Positions 16,201-55,054 of a stretch of 64,000 bases of DNA are shown in pieces (the first letter of the stretch is position 1; each line of letters begins with the position of its first letter). The translations under genes and the position numbers were made by a program. The stretch is from an uncultured Bacteroidia bacterium (lineage in GTDB: Bacteria; Bacteroidota; Bacteroidia; Bacteroidales; UBA932), in contig CACYWN010000002.1 of assembly GCA_902778105.1 (NCBI GenBank), positions 38,922 through 102,921 of the forward strand, given 5' to 3'. The notes below the pieces were generated by a model that was not told where the DNA came from, did no database searches, and was given only the letters and a program-made list of their open reading frames with translations.

Positions 16201-16793
16201 GCGTCATGGATGGACGCATCAAGGTGAATAACTCCACGGATATCGAATCCGTCGCCGCGAATTTCATCGAAGCCAGCAAGCAGACGGAACAGACCTATGG
16301 CACCGTGTCCGGCCTGGCACTCCGCTCCGTTTCCTCCGGCCAGCAGGTAACCATCGATGTCGACGGCTACTTCAAGCAGGCGGGAGACTACAAGATTACC
16401 GTCCTGCTGGTGGAGGACGGCATCATCCACCCTCAGGAGAATGGGGGCGACGATTATGTGCACGACAATGTGGTCCGGGTAACGGCAACCGGCATCCTGG
16501 GCGATGCCTTCACGGTCGGCAGCGATTTCACGCAGAAGTCCTTCCACTATTCCGTGACGGTTCCCTCGGGTTACAAGATCGAGAACATGCGGGTTTTCGC
16601 CTATGTCCATAAAGCATTCGGATCCGCCCCTGTCATCCAGACGGAAGACTACGGGAATTACTACATTGACAACTGTGCGACGGCTCCGGTCGGAAGTGTA
16701 CTGAAACTGGCTCTGGTCGGTGGCGGTGGCGGAGGAGGCACCGGTGGCGGTGACAATGAGGGAATTACACCCGGTGATGACATCAACCTGTAA
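13242..16793 (+). CDS. lipoprotein: Mfa-like, GLUG repeats, BACON domains, Omp28/thioredoxin-like end
   Basis: This 1183-residue lipoprotein (lipobox LCAC, Cys19) starts with a fimbrillin/Mfa-like region (SPTRTSLSS, then LWSEGDVIGVFVDD). About five GLUG-type repeats follow at residues ~440-590 (for example GGLVGLTEFSWIQHCTNRG). Two BACON-like domains cover ~730-905. The final domain is Omp28/thioredoxin-like: [15 protein letters not shown], with CGWC at Cys934/Cys937, and HGGGSDLQF, closely similar to the end of the preceding gene. A glycine run precedes the C-terminus. The ATG at 13242 follows the previous stop by 4 bases; the open frame upstream of it overlaps that gene. Confidence 0.85.
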   Translation: MRKIGHLPGMLLALGLCACQNLLEEDLLQDARMHPGETILKATIESGSPTRTSLSSEGNGVNKVLWSEGDVIGVFVDDAADASVFRLVDGAGTRNGIFSGSGQGSRYVAAYPYGQIKSLEGDVLTLELPVEQESADGNVGSGSLPMVAVGVSTDLSFRNVASVLKLSLKGHQLVTRLVFRPKDPSIKVSGPMSVSLARPDDPVVTMSPDGVDSVAVNVGGVLLDKDKETVFYIGLPAQTYQGGFTVRIYTSTGYMDKTYGADFTMERSKVHAAGVVTVKLDSGVEVSESLEGQGTEKDPLKIASLGDLLLMQTSVNAGQTIRTSVGGQVEAAMASYILVQDIDLGGLYNENTGKSWTPIGNYSNLFRGTFDGGGHEIAHLYIHVEEDCQGLFGAVESSTIRNLTISGDVTAHGYCGVLAGDMGRKTTVDGVVTKGTVKGENHVGGLMGHAYHVTMTFCRNEADLRDCEYYCGGLVGLTEFSWIQHCTNRGKVDGNQLSGGLAGYLNGARIVDCTNTGDVTGTWRIGGLGGYFWQGGKILNSINYGNVKGLQGSQYVGGLGGFVSSRAISYQKEATIANCIHLGTVEITDGTYCGWLAGFIGLADGETPIGDEPASGAWVKNCYWLQDGPISLPEVGGGPGIAENNFALTEAQLKGEPYNGTLYVTADGTGFNRLIDALNAGAVYWGNVWENGFGSGWEGNPPLSGWVYPGPGSYPALTDLEAQMPGNSKPIFRISADSFEMDAVGGTFQVEVTSSQDYTVSQLPEWITEVSSESPANQPHTRIFTYSVAVNRSASERKESITFTNASGTVLTVKLTQKAPYLTISVTELLFPDAGGSKRIPVSSSVAWKVTSEADWFSVTPASGTGDGALSVLAEANGNASARGGSIVLSAVDFPYEYVINLVQSGYAGEETGDWKQLPFVHQSVAMRFTATWCGWCPYMNRSILRAQELYPGKIQHLALHGGGSDLQFDPTGTLMNLFRTNAFPTGVMDGRIKVNNSTDIESVAANFIEASKQTEQTYGTVSGLALRSVSSGQQVTIDVDGYFKQAGDYKITVLLVEDGIIHPQENGGDDYVHDNVVRVTATGILGDAFTVGSDFTQKSFHYSVTVPSGYKIENMRVFAYVHKAFGSAPVIQTEDYGNYYIDNCATAPVGSVLKLALVGGGGGGGTGGGDNEGITPGDDINL

Positions 16794-45998: not shown

Positions 45999-46071
45999 CT
46001 GGATGTAGCGCAGTTGGTAGCGCACCTGGTTAGGGACCAGGAGGTCGCTGGTTCAAGTCCAGTCATCCAGA
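45999..46071 (+). tRNA. tRNA-Pro (anticodon AGG)
   Basis: The cloverleaf folds cleanly: acceptor CTGGATG with CATCCAG, D stem GCGC/GCGC, anticodon arm CCTGG-TTAGGGA-CCAGG, variable loop of 5, and T arm GCTGG-TTCAAGT-CCAGT. The anticodon (46032-46034) is AGG, which reads CCU proline. The C1-G72 pair and G36-G37 fit bacterial tRNA-Pro. CCA is not encoded. A34 outside tRNA-Arg is uncommon in bacteria. This gene marks the left edge of the accessory island. Confidence 0.9.
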
Positions 46072-46084
46072 CAACACTGAATCA

Positions 46085-46117
46085 AGCACTTGCGGAAACG
46101 CAGGTGCTTTTTCTTTT
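46085..46117 (+). terminator. terminator after the tRNA
   Basis: A 10-bp stem (46085-46094 with 46099-46108, one G-T pair) with a GAAA loop is followed by TTTTCTTTT. Confidence 0.8.
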
Positions 46118-46161
46118 ATGAATAAAGCCAGGAGAGATGACCTGATTTGTATGGTTTTTGT

Positions 46162-46169
46162 TATATTTG
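46162..46169 (+). promoter_or_regulatory. -7 box, first toxin-antitoxin pair
   Basis: TATATTTG lies 35 bases before the antitoxin ATG. The same box, with similar flanks, occurs at 50401-50408 before the duplicate antitoxin. Confidence 0.6.
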
Positions 46170-46204
46170 CATCTGGAGCAGCCAAATAATGGCTGGATAG
46201 GATT

Positions 46205-46417
46205 ATGAGTTACGAGTATAGCATACGGATTCCTGAGAGCGATCGGGCCATGTTCCGTCAGTGGGCGCGGAAGATGGGCTGGGGAGTGTCGCGGCCGAAG
46301 AAAGTGCTGGACGAGCCAAACGAAGAAACCATTCAGGCCATTAAGGATATTGAAACTGGTGTCGGCTTGGAGCCGCTCGACCTGGATCATTTTGAGGAGT
46401 ATGTGGCATCGCTGTAG
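46205..46417 (+). CDS. antitoxin of a YafQ-type pair
   Basis: This 70-residue protein starts MSYEYSIRIPESDRAMFRQW and ends in an acidic tail (LEPLDLDHFEEYVASL). It has the usual layout of type II antitoxins: an N-terminal dimerisation and DNA-binding part and a C-terminal toxin-wrapping part. The toxin gene begins 3 bases after its stop. A copy with ~86% identity is at 50444-50656. Confidence 0.8.
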   Translation: MSYEYSIRIPESDRAMFRQWARKMGWGVSRPKKVLDEPNEETIQAIKDIETGVGLEPLDLDHFEEYVASL

Positions 46418-46420
46418 GAT

Positions 46421-46702
46421 ATGTGGAATCTCATTCAAACCGGTCAATTCAAAAAGGACCTGAAACGTTATCAGAATCAACCAGCGAAAATTTCGGCTCT
46501 GATGACGGTGCTAAAGGAGTTGAGAGAAACCGGTGCTGTTTCGCCTGGCTATCGCCCGCATTCTCTGTCTGGCAACTGGTCCGGTTATCTGGAATGCCAT
46601 ATCCAAGGTGATTTCCTGCTGATTTGGAAAGATCCCCAAACCCAGGACATCTTTCTGGCTCGCCTAGGTTCCCATTCTGAGCTTTTCGGCAAAAGAATCT
46701 GA
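46421..46702 (+). CDS. YafQ-family mRNA interferase toxin
   Basis: The 93-residue protein has the RelE/YafQ fold: FKKDLKRYQNQPAKI, GYRPHSLSGNWSGYLECHI, GDFLLIWK and LARLGSHSELFG. The histidines in YRPH, ECHI and GSHS and the Asp before FLLIW fall at YafQ active-site positions, so it should be a functional ribosome-dependent endoribonuclease. It is the only toxin in this island that looks intact. Confidence 0.85.
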   Translation: MWNLIQTGQFKKDLKRYQNQPAKISALMTVLKELRETGAVSPGYRPHSLSGNWSGYLECHIQGDFLLIWKDPQTQDIFLARLGSHSELFGKRI

Positions 46703-46731
46703 ACGCTCACTTCGGTGGGCGTTTTTTTTTG
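46703..46731 (+). terminator. terminator of the first toxin-antitoxin pair
   Basis: An 8-bp stem (ACGCTCAC with GTGGGCGT) and TTCG loop are followed by nine T. Its right half is part of the 27-bp direct repeat. Confidence 0.85.
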
Positions 46732-46737
46732 AATTAT
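46711..46737 (+). repeat. 27-bp direct repeat, left copy
   Basis: It is identical over 27 bases to 52005-52031 (starts TTCGGTGGGCG, nine T, ends GAATTAT). Each copy includes the right half of a terminator that follows a toxin gene. The two copies bracket 5.3 kb of accessory DNA. Confidence 0.8.
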
Positions 46738-46781
46738 TTGGATAAGTCTTACGATACAATAGTTCGTTAATTTTATAGATT

Positions 46782-46865
46782 TTACGCCACGGCGCGAACG
46801 CCGTAGAACAAGAGTTCTTTGAAATCAGTGTTATTTAATCGCAAGTTCGCGTGTCTCGCGGACAT
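46782..46865 (-). pseudogene. possible 3' remnant of a FISUMP-type surface gene
   Basis: A minus-strand frame open to the edge of the IS21-like relic ends ...LLFYGVRAVA before TAA. This resembles the ends of the FISUMP modules in the gene at 47460-49574 (IRPVYG and SAVRAVRDK). Only the last ~27 codons remain. This rests on a short match. Confidence 0.35.
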
Positions 46866-46880
46866 TGGAAATTCCGACGC

Positions 46881-47071
46881 AAAGTGACCCCCTTGTTCTC
46901 TTTTCAACGTGCCCCCCTATTCCGATTGAAAGTGACCCCCCGGCCTTGATATCGAAAACCCAAAAAGAAAGCAGGCTGGAGCGGTTTTTACCACTTCAGC
47001 CTGCTTTTCTTGTATGATGAAAGGAAAAAGTACTAGGGGGTCAAATCGAACCGGAATGAGGGGGTCAGTTT
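46881..47071. mobile_element. IS21-like miniature element without transposase
   Basis: The left end has three ~24-bp spaced repeats beginning AAAGTGACCCCC (46881), AACGTGCCCCCC (46906) and AAAGTGACCCCC (46929). The right end has two inverted counterparts (GGGGGTCAAAT at 47036 and GGGGGTCAGTTT at 47060). Multiple short terminal repeats of this kind are typical of IS21-family ends in Bacteroidetes. The inside holds only a large hairpin (46966-47011). It looks like an internal deletion derivative that could be mobilised in trans. Confidence 0.65.
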
Positions 47072-47355
47072 ATAACGGATTCTCCATTTACCTCCTACTC
47101 GATTATGGGGGCTGGTTGGGTCTGCGGGGAGGCTTGATGGAAGCTCCTGATTAATAGCTGCTTACGGGGAGGCGTTCCGCAGGCCCATGGAATAATGCCG
47201 GGGTCTGCGGGGTGCGGTTTTGCAATGGTTTGATTGTCAGTGGATTATCGTGGATATCCCCGCGGGCCTGGTTGACCATCCTTCGCATGGGGCCCGCCGA
47301 TGAACCTGTACGGGCAGTAGGAGGGTGGTGCGGACCTCGTGCGGACCTCGTGCGC
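47072..47355. other. non-coding stretch with an 11-bp tandem repeat
   Basis: I see no convincing gene here. GTGCGGACCTC occurs twice in tandem (47328-47349) with a partial third unit, and GTCTGCGGGG occurs twice between 47110 and 47210. It is probably decayed sequence between the mobile relic and the lipoprotein operon. Confidence 0.5.
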
Positions 47356-47460
47356 TCATCGTACTTTGTTTAGGGACTGCTTGTGAAGAGGCCGTATGTC
47401 GAACAGCCGCACCAGTTGTATGAAAGCATCGTTTTCGTTTTCATTATAGCGATCAATCAT
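47356..47460 (-). CDS. small ORF downstream of the FISUMP lipoprotein
   Basis: This ORF has 34 codons (start MIDRYNENENDAFIQLVRLF). Its ATG overlaps the lipoprotein stop as TGATG, which would couple translation. There is no recognised domain, and the ORF could be chance. Confidence 0.3.
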   Translation of the reverse strand: MIDRYNENENDAFIQLVRLFDIRPLHKQSLNKVR

Positions 47461-49574
47461 CACTTGTCACGTACTGCCCTCACTGCTGATCCATAAATTC
47501 TATAGAAATCCTCTAAAATCCAATCTATATCCCCATCCCCGGAAGGAATTTCAATATACAACCCCTTCGCTTTAGCTGGATTCTCATTACTTACAGTAGA
47601 AGACATATACATTACCCTCTTTCCGGGAAAGCGGGGGCTCAAAACCTCCTTAAGTCCCGCTGCCGGAAGGAAAATACTTGCGCCTGTTTCTGAGTTGACG
47701 CACTGTACCCCGGGAATACCATTCCTGGAAGATTTCTCAATGTGGCACTTATTCATCAACTCCTCCATCTCTTCTTTTGTAGGCATACGCCATTTTCCGC
47801 CCAGCATTACATGGGCGGCGTCATCCTCCGGCTCCAACACTGTTCTTCCATCCGAGACATTATACTTGGTCAATTGACCTGAGACCAAATCCCCCAATTT
47901 ATATGTTTCCCCGTTATAAAGATTCTTGAACTCAGTTTCTCCCCAGGCATAATAATTGCCGTACTCCTCGGGCTTGGATGCACCTAAATTGAACGACGCC
48001 CAATTGACAGAAAGTCCCAGATCGACGGCTTCGGGGACAGGGGCCTGATGGGGTTCGGGGGCAGCGTCCCCATAGACGGGACGAATGGTCTGACCAAGGA
48101 AACGAAAGTCAGAGTTACAAGAAAGAAAATCATTGCCATTGACCGTCAGCAAAGAAAGCGCCTTATCTGTCAAGCCCAGATCAACCATTAGAGAGGAAGA
48201 CCAATAGCTTCCTTTCTTATAGTCACCCTCCGGCAATAATGATGTTCCGTCATAGTACCCTGCCAAAGGAAGAAAGATACTGTGCCCGGTAACGTAACTG
48301 GTCAATCTATGCCCGAAGACCCCATTCTCTTTCGTATAAACAACGGAACAATATTTTAAAAGTTCTTCCCATTCCGCATAGGTCGGCATTCTCCATTTGC
48401 CCCCGAGATTGACATGGGCGGCGTCATCCTCCGGATCAAGAACGGTCTTATTGTCGACAAAGCCCAAGTAGCCCATATCCGGGTTCGTGTTATACTTGAC
48501 TAGAGGAGTATAAGCAGTCAGAACAACTTCTTGAACGAACCACTGATAGGTCCTCATCTCATACCCGTCTTCTTCATAGCCGCTTTTCCATATCAAAGGA
48601 TCCTGACTGACATAATGCGGTTCGGTTTCGCCCCAAGCATAATAGTCTCCAAACTCTTCCGGTTTCGAGGCACCTAAATTGAATGAAGCCCATTTAAGCC
48701 CAGAAGGAAGGCCCAGGTCGATAGCATCCGGCGTAGCAATAGTATTCGGTATGGGTATAAACTCACATCCTTCATCCGCATTGTCAATGCTGCCGAAAAT
48801 AGATCTCTTAATCGTCACAGCCTTGTCGGATGCCATTCTGCTGTATTCGGATTCACGATAAAACTCCAGCTTATACCCGGATGCCAAAGAACCAGGAATG
48901 GCAACACAATAGAACCAGACATTAGTCGGGAATGAATCATTGCCGGATGGAGGAAGAAGGGTGATGACGCGACTGCCATCGGCCACTTCCCGAACAACCG
49001 GCTTCCCATTCTCATCAAAGCCAATCTTCACTGTACCCGAAAGGAATTCTCCACCATATCCTTCAAATGTTACTTTCTTAATGCCTTCTTGAGTAAGACG
49101 AAATCGAATGCCGCCACCCACATTGTAGAATTGGAGCCTGTCGCCACTAGAGTGAGCGACAGAAAGGTTCATCCCCTTCCCAAATGATCCGAATCTGGCG
49201 ACTTGTTCCGAAGGCAGCGTTGTCGTGATTGTCCCGCCTGAAAAGACCGCATCCTTGGAATACGGATAGACAGCCCAAAGCTCCATTCCTTCCGTCCAGG
49301 CATCGTCACCCAACGTACCCTTGAAAGTGGCAGAGGCGGAAGATGCCGTGATATCCGTAGTGAACTTGCCGCTCTTTCCATCGACGAACACCTTTATCTC
49401 GTCACCCGGCTCCCAATAGACATGCGTTTCTCCTTCCACTACAGTCCTGGTATCAGCGGAAGTCTCGGTCCTGGCGGTGATTGTCATCTTGCCGGCGGGG
49501 GTATCGACATTCATTTCCCGGGTACAGGCCACCAGCGCAAGAAGGGCGGCGGCAAAGAACAAACTCTTTTTCAT
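47460..49574 (-). CDS. fimbrillin-like lipoprotein with two FISUMP domains
   Basis: The protein has 704 residues with a lipobox (LLALVAC, Cys17). Residues ~25-280 are Mfa/fimbrillin-like (ADTRTVVEGETHVYWEPGD, LWAVYPYSKDAVFSGG). Two FISUMP-type domains follow (~300-520 and ~530-704), each with DLGL...WASFNLGASKPEE, YYAWGETE and LGGKWRMPT motifs. It is predicted to be exposed on the surface; its ligand is unknown. The ATG at 49574 starts the signal sequence; the frame upstream overlaps the small gene at 49594. Its codon use is more AT-rich than the flanking core genes. Confidence 0.8.
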   Translation of the reverse strand: MKKSLFFAAALLALVACTREMNVDTPAGKMTITARTETSADTRTVVEGETHVYWEPGDEIKVFVDGKSGKFTTDITASSASATFKGTLGDDAWTEGMELWAVYPYSKDAVFSGGTITTTLPSEQVARFGSFGKGMNLSVAHSSGDRLQFYNVGGGIRFRLTQEGIKKVTFEGYGGEFLSGTVKIGFDENGKPVVREVADGSRVITLLPPSGNDSFPTNVWFYCVAIPGSLASGYKLEFYRESEYSRMASDKAVTIKRSIFGSIDNADEGCEFIPIPNTIATPDAIDLGLPSGLKWASFNLGASKPEEFGDYYAWGETEPHYVSQDPLIWKSGYEEDGYEMRTYQWFVQEVVLTAYTPLVKYNTNPDMGYLGFVDNKTVLDPEDDAAHVNLGGKWRMPTYAEWEELLKYCSVVYTKENGVFGHRLTSYVTGHSIFLPLAGYYDGTSLLPEGDYKKGSYWSSSLMVDLGLTDKALSLLTVNGNDFLSCNSDFRFLGQTIRPVYGDAAPEPHQAPVPEAVDLGLSVNWASFNLGASKPEEYGNYYAWGETEFKNLYNGETYKLGDLVSGQLTKYNVSDGRTVLEPEDDAAHVMLGGKWRMPTKEEMEELMNKCHIEKSSRNGIPGVQCVNSETGASIFLPAAGLKEVLSPRFPGKRVMYMSSTVSNENPAKAKGLYIEIPSGDGDIDWILEDFYRIYGSAVRAVRDK

Positions 49575-49593
49575 GATTCCGTCCTCCATCGTC

Positions 49594-49728
49594 TTAATCC
49601 CAATCTTCATAACCGATATCCTCGTTGCCTCCGGGGATTGTACTGTCGCAGATAGCATTCTCGACATGGATAGTAATTATTCGCAGTGCCGGAGCTAGAT
49701 ACTCTTTGCGTAAAGTTTGAGTGTTCAT
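49594..49728 (-). CDS. 44-residue peptide gene opening a fimbrillin-like operon
   Basis: The encoded peptide begins MNTQTLRKEYLAPALRIITI, has one Cys (AICDST), and ends in an acidic EDIGYEDWD. It lies 19 bases before the lipoprotein ATG and behind a good promoter. It resembles the 61-residue gene at 27401-27586 in position, in the YLAPAL/YIAPAI segment, and in the single Cys ahead of an acidic tail. Function is unknown. Confidence 0.6.
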   Translation of the reverse strand: MNTQTLRKEYLAPALRIITIHVENAICDSTIPGGNEDIGYEDWD

Positions 49729-49750
49729 AGGGCTTTGACTCTTAACCGAA

Positions 49751-49781
49751 CAAATATACTAAAAATGCGAAAATTGACAAG
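49751..49781 (-). promoter_or_regulatory. promoter of the peptide/FISUMP lipoprotein operon
   Basis: On the minus strand TATATTTG (49751-49758) follows TTG (49779-49781) with 20 bases between. Spacing is the same as in the 27.7-kb fimbrillin-like operon. Confidence 0.7.
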
Positions 49782-49899
49782 GATGATTTGCAGATACGTA
49801 CAATCCTCAGCCCTCCAGGTGTGCAGTTTTTGTGCATTTTTCTCAAACGGTTATAATAAGGCTTGAGTTATAGGCCGTTATGTGAGAGGAAAAAATGAT

Positions 49900-49907
49900 T
49901 ATATTTG
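49900..49907 (+). promoter_or_regulatory. -7 box of a candidate small RNA
   Basis: TATATTTG on the plus strand, about 7 bases before the predicted RNA start. No plus-strand gene follows before the terminator at 49999. Confidence 0.55.
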
Positions 49908-49913
49908 TAAGAC

Positions 49914-49999
49914 CACTAAGGGAGAGGCGACAATAAGCCACTCAACGGGAAAAATTGGATACTGGCGGCTATCATAGGGATTTGATAGCCGCCTTTTTT
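49914..49999 (+). ncRNA. candidate ~85-nt small RNA
   Basis: A complete small transcription unit is visible. The -7 box is at 49900-49907. About 50 bases without a convincing ORF follow. A textbook intrinsic terminator ends it: a perfect 11-bp stem (49964-49974 with 49983-49993), an 8-base loop and six T. The next plus-strand gene is over 440 bases away. I cannot match it to a known RNA family. It might act as a base-pairing regulator or be a relic of a mobile element. Confidence 0.5.
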
Positions 50000-50061
50000 G
50001 TGATAATCCCTTACATAATCATTCTTGCAATATGACAAATAGTTCTTGTCATTTCAAATGT

Positions 50062-50094
50062 AAAAAAAGCCCCCGGAAAATTCCTTCCGAGGGC
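50062..50094 (-). terminator. terminator of the truncated ssb-like gene
   Basis: On the minus strand GCCCTCGGAA pairs with TTCCGGGGGC and is followed by seven T. Confidence 0.75.
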
Positions 50095-50113
50095 GATTTC
50101 ATGTAAAGGAAGA

Positions 50114-50359
50114 TCAGTTCTCCATCAGCTCGACTTCACTGGCAATGACTTCAAAGACGCTTCTCTCCGTTCCATCAGCTGCAGCGTATCTCTGCATCCT
50201 GACGCGACCGATGACATGGACAGCAGCTCCTTTCTGGAGTTGGTCCAGATTCTTGATGGTGTCGCTCTCCCACGCGACGATGCGGAACCAGGTAGTGCCA
50301 ATGACGTGACATCCATCCTTCACGTAAACGCCCCGATGATTAAAGTGGGTGATTTGCAT
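50114..50359 (-). pseudogene. N-terminally truncated SSB paralogue
   Basis: The 81 codons match the second half of SSB (TTWFRIVAWESDTIKNLDQL, HVIGRVRMQRYAAADGTERS). They align with the chromosomal copy at 1957-2313 from its DTTWFN segment on. About 40 N-terminal residues of the OB fold are missing. The break falls just where the duplicated toxin-antitoxin cassette begins (~50360), so that insertion probably cut the gene. The terminator is retained. Confidence 0.7.
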
Positions 50360-50400
50360 GAATGAAACAAGAAAGAGGGCCTGATCTGTATGGCTTTTGT

Positions 50401-50408
50401 TATATTTG
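50401..50408 (+). promoter_or_regulatory. -7 box, duplicate antitoxin
   Basis: TATATTTG, 36 bases before the ATG. Flanking sequence is closely similar to that at 46162-46169. Confidence 0.6.
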
Positions 50409-50443
50409 CAGCAGGAGCTGCCAAGTAATGGCTGAGTATGATT

Positions 50444-50656
50444 ATGAGTTACGAGTATAGCATATGGATTCCCGAGGGCGATCGGGCCATATTCCGCCAG
50501 TGGACTCGGAAGATGGGCTGGAGAGTGTCTCGGCCGAAGAAGGTGATGGATGAGCCAAACGAGGAAACCATTCAGGCCATTAAAGATATCGAATCGGGTG
50601 TTGTTTTGGAGCCTCTCGACCTGGATCATTTTGTAGAGTATGTTGCATTGCTGTAG
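50444..50656 (+). CDS. duplicate YafQ-type antitoxin without its toxin
   Basis: This 70-residue protein differs from the antitoxin at 46205 at about 10 positions. The ATG at 50444 matches that copy. The expected toxin start is destroyed 3 bases after the stop, so this antitoxin is an orphan. It might still neutralise the toxin of the first pair or repress both promoters. Confidence 0.75.
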   Translation: MSYEYSIWIPEGDRAIFRQWTRKMGWRVSRPKKVMDEPNEETIQAIKDIESGVVLEPLDLDHFVEYVALL

Positions 50657-50689
50657 GGTAGTGGAAGCTCTCAACCCGGTCGATCATAG
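50657..50689 (+). pseudogene. toxin stub after the duplicate antitoxin
   Basis: The bases align with codons 1-11 of the intact toxin (TGGAAGCTC versus TGGAATCTC; CCCGGTCGATC versus ACCGGTCAATTC). The ATG is lost and indels are present. Nothing of the toxin remains beyond this point. Confidence 0.55.
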
Positions 50690-50692
50690 CAA

Positions 50693-50700
50693 GATATTTG
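50693..50700 (+). promoter_or_regulatory. -7-like box of the third antitoxin
   Basis: GATATTTG, one base off TAnnTTTG, 47 bases before the ATG at 50748 and right after the toxin stub. Confidence 0.45.
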
Positions 50701-50747
50701 CAGATAACGCAAAAAGATGTTTTTTTGCATCAGATAGATATAAGGTC

Positions 50748-50939
50748 ATGACACAGATTGTGCTTTCTATTCCGAACGGCGAGGTCCCTTTTCTCTCCTC
50801 CTTGGCAGAGAAGATGGGATGGAATATGCAGACTCGCGAAAGTTTGGTCGAGAAGTTCATCGCGTCCTGCCCTACGGATGTTGACATCTCGGACGAAGAG
50901 ATCCAGGCAGAGGTCAATGCGGTAAGGTATGGACGATGA
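50748..50939 (+). CDS. small antitoxin-like protein paired with a broken PIN toxin
   Basis: The protein has 63 residues (MTQIVLSIPNGEVPFLSSLA, then KMGWNMQTRE, with an acidic end DISDEEIQAEV). Its stop overlaps the ATG of a PIN-domain toxin stub (50936), the usual VapBC-like arrangement. I do not recognise the exact family. The open frame extends further upstream without similarity. Confidence 0.65.
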   Translation: MTQIVLSIPNGEVPFLSSLAEKMGWNMQTRESLVEKFIASCPTDVDISDEEIQAEVNAVRYGR

Positions 50940-51001
50940 AAGTTATTCTCGATACCAATTGGAAAATCCACTCGAAGGTGGTCCCCTCTTTCCGCACATA
51001 A
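50936..51001 (+). pseudogene. PIN-domain toxin stub cut off by a mobile relic
   Basis: The frame starts MKVILDTN, the canonical PIN start with the first catalytic Asp. It then runs into unrelated residues and stops after 21 codons. The switch happens at ~50961, where sequence related to the IS21-like element begins. Confidence 0.7.
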
Positions 51002-51079
51002 CTGACTCCCGTTAATCTTTCCTTTCATCTGAACCTGAAATGCAGGCTGTAGGGACCAAAAACCGCTCCAGCCTGCATT
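50961..51079 (-). mobile_element. degenerate second copy of the IS21-like miniature element end
   Basis: Read on the minus strand, the hairpin (51039-51079) followed by GATGAAAGGAAA and two degenerate GGG-GTCA motifs matches, in order, the hairpin and right end of the element at 46881-47071. Shared stretches include GCAGGCTGGAGCGGTTTTT. It is inverted relative to the first copy. The other end is not recognisable. Confidence 0.5.
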
Positions 51080-51242
51080 CTATTGATGGTTTCGTTCTCA
51101 CACAGTGTGTCCCTACCCAGGTAAGGTCGGTTGTGTGAATAATTCCCCCAAAAACGTTATGGGGAGGGGGTGTTCTGGTACGTGTTTTTGCGTGTGCAGT
51201 ATAGGACGCGCATTTAATCCAGATAAAAAGATGGCATAATGA
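51080..51242. other. non-coding stretch before the fourth antitoxin
   Basis: No convincing gene is seen on either strand. It contains a C-run and G-run that could pair (around 51145-51172) and is probably decayed sequence from the mobile relic. Confidence 0.4.
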
Positions 51243-51272
51243 TTGCAAAACGATGAAAAGTAATTATATTTG
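51243..51272 (+). promoter_or_regulatory. promoter of the RelB-like/PIN pair
   Basis: TTG at 51243-51245, a 19-base spacer, then TATATTTG at 51265-51272. The ATG follows 17 bases later. Confidence 0.65.
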
Positions 51273-51288
51273 CAAAAAACGGAGAACT

Positions 51289-51582
51289 ATGTCACAGACA
51301 GCGATGACTATTCGGATGGATTCCGACTTGAAAATGCAGTTTGATGCCCTTTGTGATGAATTCGGGATGAGCACCAATACTGCTTTTAATATCTTTGCCC
51401 GAACCGTTGTTCGCAAGCGGCAGATACCTTTTATTATTGAAGCGCCCACGAAGGAGGATGTCGCTGCCAAGGGAAAGGCCGCATTTGACGAGATTCGGGG
51501 CATGGTGATGCGCGGAGAGATTCCAAGCATGACTCTTGATGAGATCAATGAGGAGATCAGGCTTGCGCGGGAGGGAAAGTAA
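51289..51582 (+). CDS. RelB/DinJ-family antitoxin
   Basis: This 97-residue protein has a ribbon-helix-helix N-terminus (TAMTIRMDSDLKMQFDALCD, then FGMSTNTAFNIFARTVV) and a C-terminal tail with VMRGEIPSMTLDEINEEI. The ATG at 51289 is the family start; 12 codons upstream are also open. Its stop overlaps the toxin ATG (TAATG). RelB/DinJ antitoxins usually pair with RelE-type toxins, but here the partner is a PIN protein, a combination also seen in other Bacteroidetes and Firmicutes. Confidence 0.85.
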   Translation: MSQTAMTIRMDSDLKMQFDALCDEFGMSTNTAFNIFARTVVRKRQIPFIIEAPTKEDVAAKGKAAFDEIRGMVMRGEIPSMTLDEINEEIRLAREGK

Positions 51583-51986
51583 TGCTGTATGCTGTAATTG
51601 ACACGAATGTATTGGTGTCGGCTTTGCTTTCCAGTCATGACGATTCAAGTACTGTCGTCGTCCGTAACCATATTCTGAATGGAACGATTGTCCCGTTATA
51701 CAACGAGGAGATATACCAGGAATACCTGGACGTCCTGCACCGTCCTAAATTCCAATTCCCCACAGGCAAGATTGATGACATTCTTGATGCCGTTACCAGG
51801 AATGAATTGATTTTGGGGCGTACATGAACAGAAGAAGTGATCCCAGATCCGAAAGATGTGGTGTTTTATGAGGTCGCCTTATCGAAGGAGGGATCCTATC
51901 TTGTAACAGGAAATACCAAGCACTTCCCGAAAACTCCGATTGTGGTAACGCCATCAGAATTGCTGGAGATCATCAAGAATTTGTAA
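51582..51986 (+). pseudogene. PIN-domain toxin with an in-frame TGA
   Basis: The frame runs for 134 codons and is interrupted only by TGA at 51825-51827 (codon 82). The first part has AVIDTNVLVSALLSSHDD (catalytic Asp) and NEEIYQEYLDVLHRPKF. After the TGA the same frame continues EEVIPDPKDVVFYEVALS, then SYLVTGNTKHFP, the C-terminal PIN half with its acidic residues. There is no frameshift. A single nonsense mutation has most likely inactivated the toxin. Confidence 0.8.
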
Positions 51987-51993
51987 CTTTCAA

Positions 51994-52024
51994 GCGCTCA
52001 CCAGTTCGGTGGGCGTTTTTTTTT
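51994..52024 (+). terminator. terminator after the PIN toxin
   Basis: CGCTCACC pairs with GGTGGGCG and is followed by nine T. It is almost the same terminator as at 46703-46731. Confidence 0.8.
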
Positions 52025-52031
52025 GAATTAT
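52005..52031 (+). repeat. 27-bp direct repeat, right copy
   Basis: Identical to 46711-46737. It marks the right edge of the accessory stretch; ordinary genes resume at 52043. Confidence 0.8.
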
Positions 52032-53803: not shown

Positions 53804-55054
53804 TTGAAAGCCTCGAACAAACAACTCCTCTGGTGGCTCGGTGCGCTGGCGCTGGGAACCGTTCTGGGACTTCTGCATAGCGGCGCCGTTGATGCCGTGT
53901 GCGGGTTTGTCGCCACTGTCTATACCCGGCTGTTCCAGTTCCTTGCGGTCCCTACAGTGGCGCTTGCGATCATGACGACGCTCATCCTGTTCGGGAAGCA
54001 GCGGAGTACCCGGAAGGTGTTCGTCCATACGGTGACCTACACCCTTCTGACCACTTTCGCGGCCGCGCTTGTCGGGATGGGCATGTACCTGCTGATTGCA
54101 CCGGAGAACTTGCCGGCTGAACTGGTTTCCTCGGCCGGGCGGGTGGATGCCGGAGGAACTACCTTCCGGGACCATATCATTTCAGTCATTCCCAACAACG
54201 TCGTCCAGCCTTTCCTTTCCGGAAACGTCCTGTCCATCCTCCTGATTGCCATCGCCTTCGGCCTTGCCCTGGCATGGATGCCCGACAGCGATGGAAAAGG
54301 TGTTGTGGTGAAAGGGATCCAAGGCCTCCAGGAACTGTTTTTCACCTTGATCAAGGCGCTCATCTGGACCCTTCCCCTGGGTATCACCGCCTTTGCTGCG
54401 CAGCTCTCCGCCCAGCTCAGCGGGGGCGTCGCCCTCGGCTCCCTCGGCAAGTATGCGGCCGTCATCCTGGCGGGGAACATCCTGCAGTTCTTTGTCGTCC
54501 TACCCTTGTTCCTGCTCGCCCGGAGGATCAATCCGCTGAAGGTTTTCAAGGCGATGAGCCCTGCCGTGGTGATGGCGCTTTTCACGAAGAGCTCTGCTGC
54601 CACTCTCCCTGTCACCTTGTCATCGGCGGAAAACCGGCTGGGGGTGGATCCCAAGGTGTCCCGTTTCGTCCTTCCCATCTGCACGACCATCAACATGAAC
54701 GGCTGCGCGGCCTTCATCCTGGTGACGTCCCTGTTCGTCATGCAGAACGGCGGAATGTCCCTCGGCATCGGAACCATGCTTCTATGGGTTGTCGTATCCG
54801 TATTTGCGGCTGTCGGTAACGCCGGTGTGCCCATGGGTTGCTTCTTCCTGACGGTCTCTCTCATGACGGGCCTGGGCGCTCCTGTCGAGGTCCTGGGCCT
54901 GATCCTTCCGATCTATACCATCATCGACATGGTGGAAACGGCCGAAAACGTCTGGTCAGACTCCTGCGTCTGCGCCATGACGGACCGGGACTGCGCTTAT
55001 CTCCGCTCCAGCCCGGCCAGGCGGTCCGCCCAGCGTTCCGGCCAGAACCCGTAA
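53804..55054 (+). CDS. dicarboxylate/amino-acid:cation symporter
   Basis: This 416-residue DAACS-family (GltP/DctA-like) transporter carries FTKSSAATLPVTLSS (the SSAATLP hairpin), ICTTINMNGCAAFI (NMDGT-type motif), VGNAGVPMG, and IDMVETAENVWSD with the conserved TxxN. It should import aspartate, glutamate or C4-dicarboxylates with Na+ or H+. The only sensible start is TTG at 53804, which begins KASNKQLLWWLGALALG; the nearby ATG at 53791 is out of frame. A TATCTTGC box lies at 53774-53781. Its end overlaps the opposite gene by 58 bases. Confidence 0.88.
   Translation: MKASNKQLLWWLGALALGTVLGLLHSGAVDAVCGFVATVYTRLFQFLAVPTVALAIMTTLILFGKQRSTRKVFVHTVTYTLLTTFAAALVGMGMYLLIAPENLPAELVSSAGRVDAGGTTFRDHIISVIPNNVVQPFLSGNVLSILLIAIAFGLALAWMPDSDGKGVVVKGIQGLQELFFTLIKALIWTLPLGITAFAAQLSAQLSGGVALGSLGKYAAVILAGNILQFFVVLPLFLLARRINPLKVFKAMSPAVVMALFTKSSAATLPVTLSSAENRLGVDPKVSRFVLPICTTINMNGCAAFILVTSLFVMQNGGMSLGIGTMLLWVVVSVFAAVGNAGVPMGCFFLTVSLMTGLGAPVEVLGLILPIYTIIDMVETAENVWSDSCVCAMTDRDCAYLRSSPARRSAQRSGQNP

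Follow-up and report, generated by a model that had tools for sequence, protein, structure and literature searches.

Toxin loss and open antitoxin genes among four toxin-antitoxin units beside a tRNA-Pro gene of a Bacteroidales genome

Anatomy of the four units

The window analyzed herein is a stretch of 64,000 nucleotides (nt) from an uncultured Bacteroidia bacterium (Bacteroidales; contig CACYWN010000002.1, positions 38,922 to 102,921). Downstream of a tRNA-Pro gene, it carries four type II toxin-antitoxin (TA) units of three kinds, numbered 1 to 4. A first-pass annotation, made from the sequence alone, had described four antitoxin genes in one orientation after the tRNA gene, all open, with a complete toxin in the first unit only. 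This description is confirmed. The four antitoxins, AT1 to AT4, lie on the same strand with open frames, and the YafQ-family toxin of unit 1 matches its Pfam profile over the full length. Genomes, contigs and loci of the comparison are cited by G, C and L numbers. The components of the four units are as follows.

46205-46417, plus strand: AT1, antitoxin of the intact pair; relatives at 97% (G217) and 86% (G067)
46421-46702, plus strand: YafQ-family toxin, full length; PF15738 with an expectation value (E) of 1.7e-28, profile positions 5-88 of 88
50358-50681, plus strand: diverged copy of 46118-46445 (leader, AT2 and first YafQ codons), 85.7% over 328 nt
50444-50656, plus strand: AT2, orphan antitoxin; open frame without a working cognate toxin
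50660-50681, plus strand: YafQ remnant of up to ~11 codons with altered start region; limits approximate
50748-50939, plus strand: AT3, orphan antitoxin of a PIN pair; open frame, relatives at 81-89% in 8 genomes
50936-50959, plus strand: PIN toxin stub of 8 codons; PIN domain lost, gene cut at 50959/50960
50960-51105, minus strand: end of an IS21-family element; 89% match to the end in G149, inner limit approximate
51289-51582, plus strand: AT4, RelB/DinJ-family antitoxin; TIGR02384 E 3.2e-14, PF04221 E 4.7e-11
51582-51827, plus strand: PIN_3 toxin, first part, up to the TGA at 51825-51827; PF13470 E 5.8e-11, 105 bits with a model of whole relatives
51828-51986, plus strand: PIN_3 toxin, second part, same frame past the TGA; 93 bits with the model of whole relatives

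The toxin of unit 1 passes the PF15738 gathering score (99.2 bits against 30). Among the NCBIfam models it scores 57.1 with RelE_StbE, over the cut-off of 27.9, and 64.1 bits with TIGR00053, under the cut-off of 87.25. It also aligns with the solved YafQ chains 9lew, 4ml2 and 4q2u over most of its length. YafQ cleaves mRNA in a ribosome-dependent manner and arrests growth, and the AT1-YafQ pair could still work. The layout resembles DinJ-YafQ and RelBE-type systems, as the antitoxin gene is followed after a 3-nt gap by a YafQ-family gene (PF15738). AT1 differs from those antitoxins in giving just a sub-threshold RelB hint (E 0.21), so it is not assigned to DinJ. The C-terminal part of AT1 (residues 34-70) recurs in many genomes before YafQ genes, and the N-terminal part (residues 1-35) is shared with antitoxins in other genomes. 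The two parts seem to have separate histories, with shuffling between them.

The AT2 protein is 86% identical to AT1, and by their alignment units 1 and 2 are copies of one module. The earlier picture of four separate pairs is changed by this and by the end of the unit 3 toxin, which coincides with that of an IS21-family element. Unit 2 had been said to keep an 11-codon toxin stub. The homology to YafQ indeed ends after about 11 codons; however, the start-codon region differs and small gaps are present, so the stub is residual homology to the YafQ start and no readable short toxin. Next to AT2 lies a fragment of the single-strand binding protein gene, which holds the C-terminal part of PF00436 only.

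50114-50359, minus strand: ssb (single-strand binding protein) fragment; PF00436 positions 47-104 of 104, E 4.9e-10

The same ssb gene (~91% identical) adjoins a related antitoxin in G217. That antitoxin is open, and residues 1-44 of its YafQ are gone through a deletion unlike the one in the window. Because the two breaks differ, the ssb-antitoxin type of module has lost YafQ in two genomes by two ways. The AT1-type pair of G067 is whole.

Unit 3 had been described as carrying a PIN stub cut at about 50961. The actual cut lies at 50959/50960, after 8 codons, and the first base of the IS21-family end (50960) directly follows PIN codon 8 (50959). When 50955-51225 was used as a query, this sequence or part of it was matched in 22 of 180 genomes, own genome included, and 6 of the 27 matching rows started exactly at 50960. 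In contig C29 of G149, an 89% identical end follows istB (PF01695, E 1.3e-58) and a Mu-type transposase C-terminal domain (Mu-transpos_C_2, PF22483, E 3.5e-18). Because the same end adjoins istA/istB in G149, the sequence from 50960 is assigned to the end of an element of the IS21 family of insertion sequences (IS).

Searched against Pfam at E up to 1, AT3 gave nothing; a weak VapB15 hint was obtained (E 0.062). Of the 250 genomes searched, 8 others hold a relative with 81-89% identity, and three weak matches were also obtained. In six of the eight (G014, G119, G164, G172, G209 and G248) a whole PIN gene follows, and AT3 is identified as an antitoxin because its relatives precede these genes. 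The contig of G076 ends after the antitoxin. In G156 the AT3 relative is an orphan; its toxin is missing, and another antitoxin-like frame comes next. On contig C73 of this genome (L104, 4824-5300), the orphan and the antitoxin-like frame are followed by a frame that looks toxin-like by eye.

In unit 4, AT4 passes the curated cut-off of TIGR02384 (52.9 bits against 45.65). The PIN_3 frame, 51582-51986, is interrupted by one TGA at 51825-51827, in agreement with the full PIN frame with one TGA reported before. The two parts were searched apart, and an extra model was built from whole relatives. The second part matches PF13470 at positions 88-115 (E 0.0014) with 19.9 bits, which is under the gathering score of 27. 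Units 3 and 4 resemble PIN-toxin TA systems (VapBC-like; PIN_3/TIGR00305) in that the antitoxin stop overlaps the toxin start and the relatives are whole. They differ in that both PIN genes of the window are broken and in that unit 4 couples its PIN toxin with a RelB/DinJ antitoxin.

Toxin loss in the unit-4 family across the genus

The unit-4 family was followed in 250 genomes of the genus, which were searched twice, the antitoxin as query matching 68/250 and an intact relative of the toxin 56/250. Family models were used to score the stop-to-stop frames of the fetched loci; five toxins of doubtful status were inspected by eye. The classed antitoxins number 58, window included; a whole toxin accompanies 44 of them, and beside the other 14 the toxin is broken or absent. 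Every single break (14/14) is in the toxin, with p = 6e-4 if breaks fell by gene length. Among the fetched loci, no whole toxin of the family was found without an antitoxin, two whole PIN frames at contig starts aside (G011:C96 and G082:C95), which cannot be judged. Loss of the toxin next to an open antitoxin is thus recurrent, as the first-pass annotation had proposed, in 14 of 58 modules of this family and, by its different deletion, in the YafQ of G217.

Both genes are broken in at least two places, G119:C20 and G156:C65, and by eye probably also in G162:C18. Antitoxin remnants without a toxin hit are present in G160:C22 and G216:C20. The antitoxin search gave 84 rows by hand count, 26 of which were left out of the 58. 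Eight hold broken or partial antitoxins (G156:C65, two of G119:C20, G160:C22, two of G216:C20, G162:C18 and G123:C45), five have another C-terminal part (G025, G067:C7, G163:C110 and two of G211), five lie at contig ends (G074, two of G106, G012 and G145:C41), and eight are loci outside the fetched set (G141, G212, G090:C9, G189, G072:C4, G152, G099 and G017:C139). Some judgement calls were made. Two toxins were taken as whole, that of G064:C1, which reaches model position 120 of 138, and that of G106:C103, which extends up to its contig end (position 133); G202, without any toxin trace, was counted as absent. The toxin-first count leaves out weak rows of other PIN types, e.g. G138:C59:67201, G082:C6, G167, G009:C3, G038:C27, G041 and G158.

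The position of the breaks was also read. Of 19 broken toxins of the three families, 11 are first broken at or before codon 17; an even spread of breaks along 118 codons predicts about 3 (nominal p 1e-5, for a hand-read count picked after the fact, in which counting deletions and absent toxins likely introduces a bias). The early-break loci are the window at 50660-50681 and 50936-50959, L217, L229, L210, L241, L099, L116, L102, L226 and L104; G090 is a possible twelfth. Clusters of intact modules occur as well. Two whole RelB-PIN pairs stand in tandem about 1 kb apart in L083 (G136:C43) and in L081 (G039:C18).

An abundance of orphan antitoxins has been described in Klebsiella pneumoniae, with anti-addiction, new regulation and decay proposed (PMC7192599), and in E. 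coli, with anti-addiction and new regulation proposed (PMC10790755). The likeness to the present locus is that open antitoxin genes without a working toxin are common within a population. Orphan toxins are abundant in E. coli as well, according to the latter paper, whereas none was found in the unit-4 family among fetched loci away from contig starts. The present case further differs in that the breaks are read at the sequence level and in a Bacteroidales genus.

The interval between the tRNA-Pro gene and the symporter gene

The source is a draft genome of 2.66 Mb in 48 contigs, 84% complete. The interval studied runs from the tRNA-Pro gene to a symporter gene at 53804 and measures 7.7 kb in the window. 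Besides the TA units it contains, or is bordered by, the following features.

45999-46072, plus strand: tRNA-Pro(AGG), found by ARAGORN; conserved left edge of the variable interval
46868-47085, no strand assigned: ~218-bp element of IS21-family end sequence, identified by its alignment with an istA/istB element terminus; outer limits by eye
47460-49667, minus strand: lipoprotein-like gene, between units 1 and 2

The left-flank gene was searched in 101 genomes of the genus, drawn from a larger group in which nearer genomes may exist. The best matches among them were G069 (90%), G017 (84%), G064 (71%) and G003 (68%), and the tRNA-Pro gene is present in all four. With the TA proteins as queries, tblastn (E up to 0.01) gave no match in the tRNA surroundings retrieved from each of the four (17.5-19.5 kb). 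Intact toxins at all four sites, named beforehand as the case that would speak against the account, were not seen among the relatives compared. The tRNA-symporter distance of G069 is 13.8 kb and that of G064 is 5.4 kb; no symporter gene was found in the stretches fetched from G017 and G003. In G064 (L025, 2761-5663) and G003 (L026), a block matching the window at ~55.0-59.3 kb is inverted and adjoins the tRNA-Pro gene; in the window this block is located to the right of the symporter. In G069 and G017, other genes follow the tRNA. Because the content after the tRNA differs in the four relatives, the tRNA-Pro-symporter stretch is a variable, rearranged interval.

The four units do not form one array, because about 3.7 kb with the lipoprotein-like gene and the ssb fragment separate units 1 and 2. 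An ancestral four-pair array with later loss was considered and is not the default, the TA proteins being unmatched near the tRNA in the four relatives; relatives of all three module types are present in other genomes of the genus. The tRNA gene was also considered as an attachment site. Integration there is unsupported: an integrase would leave a second copy of the tRNA 3' end, and the window yielded no such copy, the best candidate being a 14-mer at 16629 that has one mismatch.

The ~218-bp element lies after unit 1 and breaks no TA gene, and no transposase was seen in it. Its portion 46870-47075 was matched in 23 of 180 genomes, own genome included, some at contig starts. The lipoprotein-like gene has two repeated C-terminal domains of the Lcl_C / Fib_succ_major type at sub-threshold level, and similar genes are present in the sequence retrieved from G069, G017 and G064. 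The ssb 3' part and its flank were found in G069 (L023, 15234-15381), ~91% identical to window 50063-50213 and between the tRNA-Pro and symporter genes. An ssb-bearing element at the tRNA-Pro gene may therefore predate the present layout.

Constraint on the orphan antitoxins and the probable order of decay

The four units are probably seen at different stages of ordinary decay in which the toxin goes first, and no special keeping of the antitoxins is needed. An antitoxin that is lost first leaves the cell exposed to the toxin, so loss of the toxin before the antitoxin is expected. The toxin of unit 2 would have been truncated within its first codons, with the AT3 unit now close behind it. In unit 3, the break at the IS21-family end after codon 8 suggests that the element arrived by insertion and that the remaining toxin was lost. 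The toxin of unit 4 would have been lost through a single stop codon. The antitoxins would still be open since they must outlive the toxin and have had too little time to break. The case is another instance of known orphan-antitoxin decay.

Selective constraint was estimated with a two-rate codon model on the 58 antitoxins of the unit-4 family, in which the 14 orphan terminal branches were compared with the rest. High scale factors of the codon models (~5) make the ratios of nonsynonymous to synonymous rates (dN/dS) rough; among the four AT1-type sequences, the branch of G067 is saturated, and their topology is ambiguous. Several results weigh against the decay reading. The dN/dS is 0.051 on the orphan branches (n = 14) and 0.064 on the rest, and for the former a value of 1 is rejected with a margin of ~98 log units. 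The window branches of AT3 (0.066) and AT4 (0.012) are both constrained. For AT2, dN/dS = 1 is rejected as well in two of three topologies (p 4e-4), the codons unique to it (7 nonsynonymous and 7 synonymous, against 2 and 7) give p = 0.23, and a paired control, the AT3 relative in G209, shows an equally high value (3.6, p = 7e-4). In addition, the count in both directions covers the unit-4 family only (toxin-first searches matched YafQ in 51/250 genomes and PIN3 in 26/250), and the genomes are drafts, one per species.

Drift of the orphan antitoxins as a class is ruled out in the unit-4 family, as their terminal branches are constrained like paired ones. Twenty random sets of 14 paired branches, used as a control, gave dN/dS values of 0.044-0.093; two of the 14 orphan branches are almost without length (0.000 and 0.003) and uninformative. 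The constraint on AT3, AT4 and the unit-4 orphans fits recent toxin loss as well as it fits retention, since the codon model cannot date toxin loss along a branch. The likelihood estimate for AT2 is 0.17-1.03, depending on the topology, against ~0.02 elsewhere (p 0.0016-0.0031 over three topologies). By likelihood AT2 thus leans to relaxed constraint, which the simple count does not show, and the signal is weak. About 4.6% of substitutions are nonsense, so that 15-20 neutral changes would leave AT2 open with a chance of ~40-50%; AT2 has 19 unique sites. Its open frame is therefore no evidence for keeping.

The first-pass annotation had suggested that the orphan antitoxins are kept, perhaps as anti-addiction devices. 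They would neutralise the toxins of incoming mobile elements, as in a published model (PMC2654758), and AT2 would also act on the YafQ at 46421. The constraint on AT3, AT4 and the 14 orphan branches agrees with this proposal, as do the module relatives in other genomes of the genus and a promoter-like motif that is still present upstream of AT2 and AT4. However, toxin-first loss proceeds without any later benefit, AT2 leans towards relaxed constraint by likelihood (the count being not significant), and its frame had an even chance or slightly less of surviving neutrally. Antitoxin remnants moreover exist, not only in the two places without a toxin hit but also beside toxin remnants in G119:C20, G156:C65 and, by eye, G162:C18, and such remnants are predicted by a decay series. 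The anti-addiction claim is left unsupported, and we regard it as unlikely. The motif is TAnnTTTG, which we take to be the Bacteroidetes -7 type promoter motif. A motif search placed it as follows.

46162-46169, plus strand: TAnnTTTG, 43 nt upstream of AT1
50401-50408, plus strand: TAnnTTTG, 43 nt upstream of AT2
51265-51272, plus strand: TAnnTTTG, 24 nt upstream of AT4

As background, such a motif occurs in the 10-80 nt range upstream of 1.8% of window positions. No TAnnTTTG was found within 110 nt upstream of AT3, so AT3 is perhaps read from the AT2 promoter and may depend on it. The AT2-AT3 gap is 91 nt and holds the YafQ remnant. From this arrangement, AT2 and AT3 could form an antitoxin-only operon driven by the AT2 promoter, and with AT4 they could make up a broad immunity set against the YafQ and PIN addiction modules of the genus; we hold this to be quite unlikely. 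If it were true, the orphan AT3 and antitoxin-like frame of G156 would be a second case.

The orphan antitoxins might also have been co-opted as plain repressors, for example AT2 on the AT1-YafQ promoter, with which it shares the leader. The AT1 and AT2 leaders have 82.6% identity across 86 nt, and other antitoxins share the N-terminal part of AT1. Yet the leader is conserved no better than the gene (82.6% against 88.1%), and in the alignment the N-terminal half of AT2 has replacements where AT1, G217 and G067 agree. This regulatory role is very unlikely. That the breaks are artefacts of draft assembly is suggested by the 48 contigs and 84% completeness, and by the break of unit 4, a single codon. 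Breaks 2 and 3 exceed single-base events, break 3 meets the IS end at its first base, and G217 has its own, different break. Errors would strike antitoxins too, yet only toxins are singly broken among the 58 classed modules, which makes an artefact highly improbable.

Toxin-first decay is thus retained as the best explanation, and the locus illustrates at the sequence level in what order addiction modules die, since three ways of losing a toxin stand side by side in it. The within-genus count, with 14 of 58 toxin-only breaks and no antitoxin-only break in the fetched loci, could serve as a baseline. Claims that orphan antitoxins are kept for a benefit must beat this baseline of toxin-first decay plus time.

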